Origin: Phycisphaerales bacterium
GTDB lineage: Bacteria; Planctomycetota; Phycisphaerae; Tepidisphaerales; Tepidisphaeraceae
DNA: 59,393 nt
Direction: 5' to 3'
NCBI GenBank assembly: GCA_020847545.1
Contig: JADLBV010000028.1
Coordinates: 1 to 59,393 of the forward strand
The notes under the pieces were generated by a model that saw only the letters and a list, made by a program, of their open reading frames with translations, made no database searches and was not told the DNA's origin. A program made the position numbers and the translations under genes. Of the stretch, positions 53,469 to 54,738 are shown one piece after another (position 1 is the first letter of the stretch; the number at the start of each line of letters is the position of its first letter).

Positions 53469-54059
53469 ATGGGGCTGCATCAGATACCCAAAGACCTCGC
53501 AAGACGATACCGATTTGAGGAATGGAACCATGCCGCCGCAATCCTGGCGGGTGATTTTCCTGAACAATGGGTCGATCTTCTGGGTTGCCTGAAGGCGTTT
53601 CGTCTTCGCAGGAGCGCCATCATCATTGGAGGGGGCGGACGTTCACAAATCCCTCAACAACTTGATGGATACCTGTCAAAACGCGGTTGGGCAGAGCATC
53701 AGTTTGACATCGGGATCCGTGTTGACGGTCGCGAGATTGATGTGCCGACGCACAAGATCGACAATTTCAAAGGGGGTGTCGGCGTTGAGGTGGAATGGAA
53801 CAACAAGACAGAATTTTATGACCGCGATCTGAATAACTTTCGTTTGCTTCACCAGTTACAGGTGATGTCTGTCGGTGTCATTATCACTCGCGTATCAGGG
53901 TTACAGGTGTTGTTCGATGAGTTGGGCATCGGCCATAAGTATGGCAATTCGACAACGCATTTGGACAAATTGCTGCCGAAGGTCAACGGCGGTGGGGCGG
54001 GAGGATGTCCGGTACTGGCGATCGGAATCGAAAGAGCCTGTTATGATGCGAACATGTAG
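53469..54059 (+). CDS. Type II restriction endonuclease, BglII/BstYI-like
   Basis: A 196-residue protein. The family block HKIDNFKGGVGVEVEWNNKT followed by EFYDRDLNNFRLL matches BglII-type enzymes (consensus VEWNNKDPxFDRDLxNF). D98, E107 and E109 are spaced as D84, E93 and Q95 in BglII, so the metal site looks intact, with E replacing Q at the third position as in BamHI. Specificity should be close to RGATCY, but this is inference. It has no C-protein gene beside it. The 3' end overlaps the convergent methyltransferase by 19 bases. The gene is small and AT-richer than neighbours, which suggests recent transfer. Confidence 0.8.
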   Translation: MGLHQIPKDLARRYRFEEWNHAAAILAGDFPEQWVDLLGCLKAFRLRRSAIIIGGGGRSQIPQQLDGYLSKRGWAEHQFDIGIRVDGREIDVPTHKIDNFKGGVGVEVEWNNKTEFYDRDLNNFRLLHQLQVMSVGVIITRVSGLQVLFDELGIGHKYGNSTTHLDKLLPKVNGGGAGGCPVLAIGIERACYDANM

Positions 54060-54688
54060 GCGCTGGATTCGTCGCTGTCGTACATTGGGTGAACATCGCG
54101 TTTTTCCGCGTAGCTGTCCAACTCCATGCCCCACTGTTCCCATCCCTTGATGCGTTCGCGGGCAAACAGTTCAAGGAACGGGCCGGGGCTGCATCGTTCG
54201 ATCAAGCCATAGACGGCGGACGGCTTGCGCGAATGTTCGCGCTTGCGCGTGGCGATGATGTTGACCTGCGTGCGGCCGGGCTGGAGCGTGCGCATCTTTC
54301 CGCGTGTGCCGAACAACAACAGCTCCGTGACGTTGCGGAAATAGAACCCGACGCCGCGACCATCAGGCCCACCGTCCTTGCGAACCTTGTACCAGACAAT
54401 ATTCCCCTTGTATTGGAAGCCCCATGCGTCCATGACGAGCAAGCCCCACGGCAACAGCGCGTTTGGAACCCATAGATACAGATGGGCGGGATTTGTCGAG
54501 TGCGAGGCAACAGGCATCGCGCAGATATCCTCGATGCTCATCGTTTCGTATCGGCGCAATCGAACGTGTTCGGGAGCAACCTTGCCCGTGCGGTTTTGAA
54601 ACCGCCAAGGCGGATCGGCAAGAATCGTGGAAAACCGGCCTGTTAACCCCGGCAGGCCTTCGGTCGGCTTTTGCATGTGTGTAACCAT
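54041..54688 (-). CDS. MT-A70-type N6-adenine DNA methyltransferase
   Basis: A 215-residue methyltransferase. The catalytic DPPW is residues 25-28 (ILADPPWRFQN), the S-adenosylmethionine region lies towards the C terminus (GPFLELFARERIKGWEQWGM), and LYLWVPNALLPWGLLVMDAW is the family core. These MT-A70 (IME4-like) enzymes methylate adenine N6. M.BglII is, as I recall, an N4-cytosine enzyme, so pairing with an adenine methylase would be an unusual solo or swapped combination. ATG 54688 is preferred; an upstream ATG at 54730 adds 14 residues. The last 19 bases are shared with the endonuclease. Confidence 0.85.
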   Translation of the reverse strand: MVTHMQKPTEGLPGLTGRFSTILADPPWRFQNRTGKVAPEHVRLRRYETMSIEDICAMPVASHSTNPAHLYLWVPNALLPWGLLVMDAWGFQYKGNIVWYKVRKDGGPDGRGVGFYFRNVTELLLFGTRGKMRTLQPGRTQVNIIATRKREHSRKPSAVYGLIERCSPGPFLELFARERIKGWEQWGMELDSYAEKRDVHPMYDSDESSAYMFAS

Positions 54689-54738
54689 ACTCGAATCGCT
54701 TAACAGAATCCAAAATAGTCTACCATCCATGATTCAAA

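Follow-up and report, generated by a model that had tools for sequence, protein, structure and literature searches.

The window considered here, the whole stretch of 59,393 nucleotides from a Phycisphaerales bacterium, contains two convergent open reading frames whose 3' ends overlap by 19 bases (54041..54059), as an earlier, sequence-only reading of this DNA had described. The gene on the plus strand (53469..54059) encodes a 196-residue type II restriction endonuclease of the BglII/BstYI family, assigned from its match to PF09195, its identity to R.Nph3I and its fold. That on the minus strand (54041..54730) encodes an MT-A70 family DNA N6-adenine methyltransferase of 229 residues, if counted from the first ATG, assigned from PF05063 and its identity to M.Nph3I. 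Neither gene is truncated, and every conserved motif is intact. Among the listed open reading frames no gene for a control (C) protein was found between or beside them, and no promoter or terminator was detected above chance at the locus.

Residues 21–188 of the nuclease match the Pfam profile PF09195 (Endonuc-BglII) with E=7.5e-39, well past the cut-off and over the full length of the profile (positions 1–163 of 163), confirming its identification as a BglII-like enzyme. D98, E107 and E109, singled out in the same reading, are found at these positions and form the candidate active site: in the 53 aligned relatives D98 never varies and position 107 is occupied by Glu or Asp, and in the profile alignment the D-x8-E-x-E spacing fits the D-x8-E-x-Q pattern of BstYI and BglII, with ExE in the branch of the window nuclease versus ExQ in that of BstYI and BglII. 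The AlphaFold2 model of the nuclease (mean pLDDT, 91.8; the alignments used for the structure models were rebuilt without phage or plasmid rows) has BstYI (2p0j) and BglII (1d2i) as its nearest folds (VIA Z, 17.7 for both), followed by BamHI (3bam, 14.6), while the next unrelated chain reaches a Z of only 5.7. The nuclease has no match in NCBIfam or PADLOC, and when the PDB was searched by sequence with this protein alone, or with a profile built from the D/E/E branch only, neither BstYI nor BglII was reached; these were retrieved only by a profile including the D/E/Q branch or by fold comparison.

The partner was likewise correctly recognized as an MT-A70 enzyme with a DPPW motif. Residues 33–203 match PF05063 (MT-A70) with E=1.7e-24, well past the Pfam cut-off, and the DPPW motif corresponds to the invariant D39, P40, P41 and W42, so that the partner is an MT-A70 protein rather than the SPPY-containing N6_N4 enzyme of the BglII system proper. 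The type II methyltransferase profile of PADLOC also matches the protein (E=6e-86), with no match in NCBIfam. The best structural matches of its model, which is of modest confidence (pLDDT, 70.5), are METTL3 and the Tetrahymena MTA1 chain. In relatives the methylase starts near what is residue 15–22 of the window open reading frame; the first ATG (54730) is thus probably too far upstream, with the true start at approximately residue 15–22. It is the only MT-A70 gene found in the host genome.

The nuclease and MT-A70 genes are kept adjacent in relatives from several phyla, as for the two genes of a type II restriction-modification system, and chance is far exceeded by this conservation of adjacency. 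The overlap is also exactly 19 bases long in four other loci (L032, L033, L034 and L035), and 42–89 bases long in six further relatives. In the tree, the convergent MT-A70 systems, including the window pair, form one supported clade of 13 (100/99), whose members come from Planctomycetota and Acidobacteriota. Across 26 MT-A70 pairs, distances among the nucleases correlate with those among the methylases (Mantel r, 0.43, a value not reached in any of 5000 permutations), a correlation to which shared species history contributes part. At L034 the convergent MT-A70 pair has another PF09195 nuclease as neighbour (L034:3272-3883, minus strand), which belongs to the BstYI-like branch; this nuclease looks inactive, since its active-site Asp is replaced by Val and its Gln by His.

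The methylase neighbours of 53 related nucleases, drawn from the phylum survey, genome contigs, phages and plasmids, were MT-A70 proteins in 27 cases, D12 adenine methylases in 11 and N6_N4 enzymes in 12, with none found in the remaining three; these counts are not a census, because the window nuclease was the query for part of the set. The 27 MT-A70-linked nucleases, including that of the window, are almost equally divided between convergent (14) and tandem (13) arrangements, and MT-A70 is the commonest partner found in the window nuclease's branch of the family. The notion that the pairing is unusual must therefore be abandoned, also because such pairs are publicly annotated and one has been characterized (PMC10734518). 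The SPPY motif typical of m4C-type enzymes is present in 11 of the 12 N6_N4 partners of the set, or in 12 of the 13 with a readable motif when the count takes in one more, adjacent to a weakly matching nuclease outside the 53 rows, the other having DPPF. The N6_N4 profile is contaminated by nuclease open reading frames, and its weak matches on these were disregarded. All nucleases with N6_N4 partners have Gln at the position of E109 and make up the BstYI and BglII branch.

A D12 adenine methylase takes the place of the MT-A70 protein beside the nucleases of L043, L044, L047, L048, L050 and L052-L054 (contigs) and of L063 and L064 (plasmids). The D12-paired nucleases are approximately 46–57% identical to that of the window, often with Asp in place of the first active-site Glu, and from these comparisons the methylase appears to have been exchanged while the nuclease stayed. 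It may be tentatively suggested that the third active-site residue tracks the type of protection, D/E/Q nucleases being associated mostly with SPPY enzymes and D/E/E or D/D/E ones with MT-A70 or D12 methylases, swapped more than once, a split between m4C and adenine methylation that is read from sequence and from a small number of independent events. Should nuclease sensitivity to m6A obey the D/E/Q versus D/E/E division, the change in the nuclease and that of the methylated base would have gone together. The apparent association of D/E/Q nucleases with m4C-type partners, and of D/E/E ones with two classes of adenine methylase, is the sole mildly new point of the present analysis. With one nuclease family, three methylase classes and two methylated bases, the group is a handy one for studying methylase exchange in restriction systems.

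Indirect information on the target site was obtained from the composition of the host genome. In 712 kb of host sequence RGATCY occurs 256 times, whereas its parts predict 639 occurrences (ratio, 0.40), and in 316 kb all four forms are depleted (observed/expected: AGATCT, 6/35.5; GGATCC, 37/102.7; AGATCC, 28/54.9; GGATCT, 39/66.4). A first depletion score (z, −11) had suggested specificity for RGATCY; however, fixed margins make the deficits of RGATCY and YGATCR equal by construction, so that such a score alone cannot separate the two; control genomes were therefore added, and the signal persisted, although weaker. The GATC-flank odds ratio is 0.20 in the host, 0.32–0.73 in seven other pair-bearing genomes of the phylum and 0.31–1.16 in ten without the pair, the values being lower in the eight genomes with the pair than in the ten without it (one-sided p, 0.017). 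Depletion was also observed in three of the ten genomes with no detected nuclease, and in the host the YACGTR and YAGCTR palindrome classes are slightly more depleted than RGATCY. The depletion fits, in an indirect way, restriction at RGATCY. Among the genomes analysed, RGATCY depletion is most pronounced (odds ratio, 0.18) in another genome of the host's class, G352, as sampled in stretches L125-L129; its PF09195 match (L025) is weak and short.

Searches of annotated phage genomes with each of the two proteins identified the counterpart of the window pair in the Nitratiruptor phages NrS-2 and NrS-3. The window nuclease is 51% identical to NrS3_08 (R.Nph3I) over 192 residues and the methylase is 71% identical to NrS3_07 (M.Nph3I) over 177 columns, and Pfam places the phage proteins in the same families, PF09195 and MT-A70, respectively. 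The NrS-3 enzymes were characterized in vitro in 2023: R.Nph3I cleaves AGATCT, GGATCC, AGATCC and GGATCT, while M.Nph3I, its cognate methylase, yields RG(m6A)TCY, and m6A in the site inhibits R.Nph3I completely (PMC10734518). RGATCY was found to be fully methylated in the Nitratiruptor host and phage, and a relative listed in REBASE, M.Dor12838I, has equal specificity (PMC9723563). The assays of the Nph3I pair answer, for a homologue, the question of whether adenine methylation protects, and make protection by adenine methylation of RGATCY, one of the two possibilities initially considered, very likely right and the best prediction by homology. The other possibility, a different kind of defence, finds no support, the Nph3I pair, which belongs to both families, being a restriction-modification system (PMC10734518). 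The window nuclease gene contains the sole RGATCY site present in either gene, a GGATCC (53713..53718); the Nph3I pair (L061) likewise has one such site, again GGATCC in the nuclease gene, which is probably a coincidence.

By taking into account the families of the two proteins, the nuclease fold, the conserved linkage, the intact motifs and the RGATCY depletion, all observed for the window pair and its host, along with what the homologous Nph3I pair and the family allow to be predicted about dimerization of the nuclease, its target sequence, the base that is methylated and inhibition by m6A, the two genes are best explained as a complete, standard type II restriction-modification system, with RGATCY as predicted site and m6A as predicted protection (probability, approx. 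0.88). The nuclease would act as a dimer with the BstYI/BglII/BamHI fold and cut unmodified RGATCY, a GATC-centred hexamer, as R.Nph3I does. The MT-A70 protein would transfer a methyl group to N6 of the adenine on both strands of the site, forming RG(m6A)TCY, and this mark would block the nuclease, so that the cell's own DNA would be safe and unmarked incoming DNA cut.

The exact site could differ, since the nuclease is only 51% identical to R.Nph3I, and the family includes enzymes specific for AGATCT (BglII) as well as for RGATCY (BstYI and R.Nph3I); the same system might then act on a narrower or different sequence, such as GGATCC or AGATCT only. However, the four RGATCY forms are all depleted in the 316 kb of host sequence and the methylase shares 71% identity with an enzyme acting on RGATCY, which makes a narrower site rather unlikely. 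A decayed or silent system, as may be envisaged from relatives in which the genes are split or frame-shifted (L012, L051 and L029) or the methylase is shortened (L039), is improbable for the window, where both genes are full length and retain all conserved motifs.

A further alternative is that a different host methylase provides the protection against the nuclease, and that the MT-A70 neighbour has another role. The host genome also holds a D12 methylase, several N6_N4 proteins and one C5 methylase; it therefore runs further methylation systems, and another of these enzymes could also act on GATC. The D12 gene (L073; C122:5167-5784, host G000) lies directly beside an open reading frame for a winged-helix protein with an HNH-like motif, and one N6_N4 gene (L066; C112:46489-47145, host G000) is followed by a 383-residue open reading frame with no Pfam match, so that each has a partner of its own; the two are probably further restriction-modification loci. 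No other host methylase is better placed than the MT-A70 protein as the partner of the nuclease. With the MT-A70 gene conserved as a neighbour and co-diverging with the nuclease, and with its homologue M.Nph3I demonstrated to be the cognate methylase (PMC10734518), protection by another host enzyme is highly improbable.

Since a related pair has already been studied in the laboratory, the combination of the two families at this locus is not new. The initial doubt is settled in that BglII-type nucleases normally can have MT-A70 methylases as partners; therefore, the expectation of an m4C enzyme holds only for the BglII/BstYI-like branch. As stated in the earlier reading, the BglII methylase does act on cytosine N4, forming AGAT(m4C)T (PMC4882945), but this concerns BglII itself, in another branch.

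Among the known systems, the Nph3I pair resembles that of the window in the adjacent PF09195 nuclease and MT-A70 genes and in the D/E/E active site; it differs in that the genes are in tandem, nuclease then methylase, on one strand of a temperate phage, whereas those of the window lie on a bacterial contig, converge and overlap at their ends. The BglII system of Bacillus globigii (PMC4882945) shares the family and fold of the nuclease, but is specific for AGATCT only, makes N4-methylcytosine, includes a C control gene and has Gln instead of Glu as the third active-site residue. BstYI, of the closest solved fold and recognizing RGATCY, has a D/E/Q active site and, in contrast to what is predicted here, is not blocked by adenine methylation (PMC10734518). 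The BglII/BstYI-like system of Acinetobacter baumannii A118 (PMC10287943) also combines a BglII-like nuclease with an adenine methylase, with m6A at RGATCY and protection by Dam methylation, but its two genes are separated by one for an HTH regulator; the system of similar layout on the Acinetobacter plasmid pTR3_1 contains a D12-type methylase rather than an MT-A70 protein. A BglII-type nuclease and MT-A70 pair is already annotated in the public record of a Mesorhizobium phage. Finally, the Xanthomonas citri plasmid pXfc37 carries, with NCBI annotation, a convergent pair of a BglII/BstYI-family nuclease and an MT-A70 methylase as in the window, but its nuclease belongs to a separate branch (36% identity) and an 8-base gap takes the place of the overlap.
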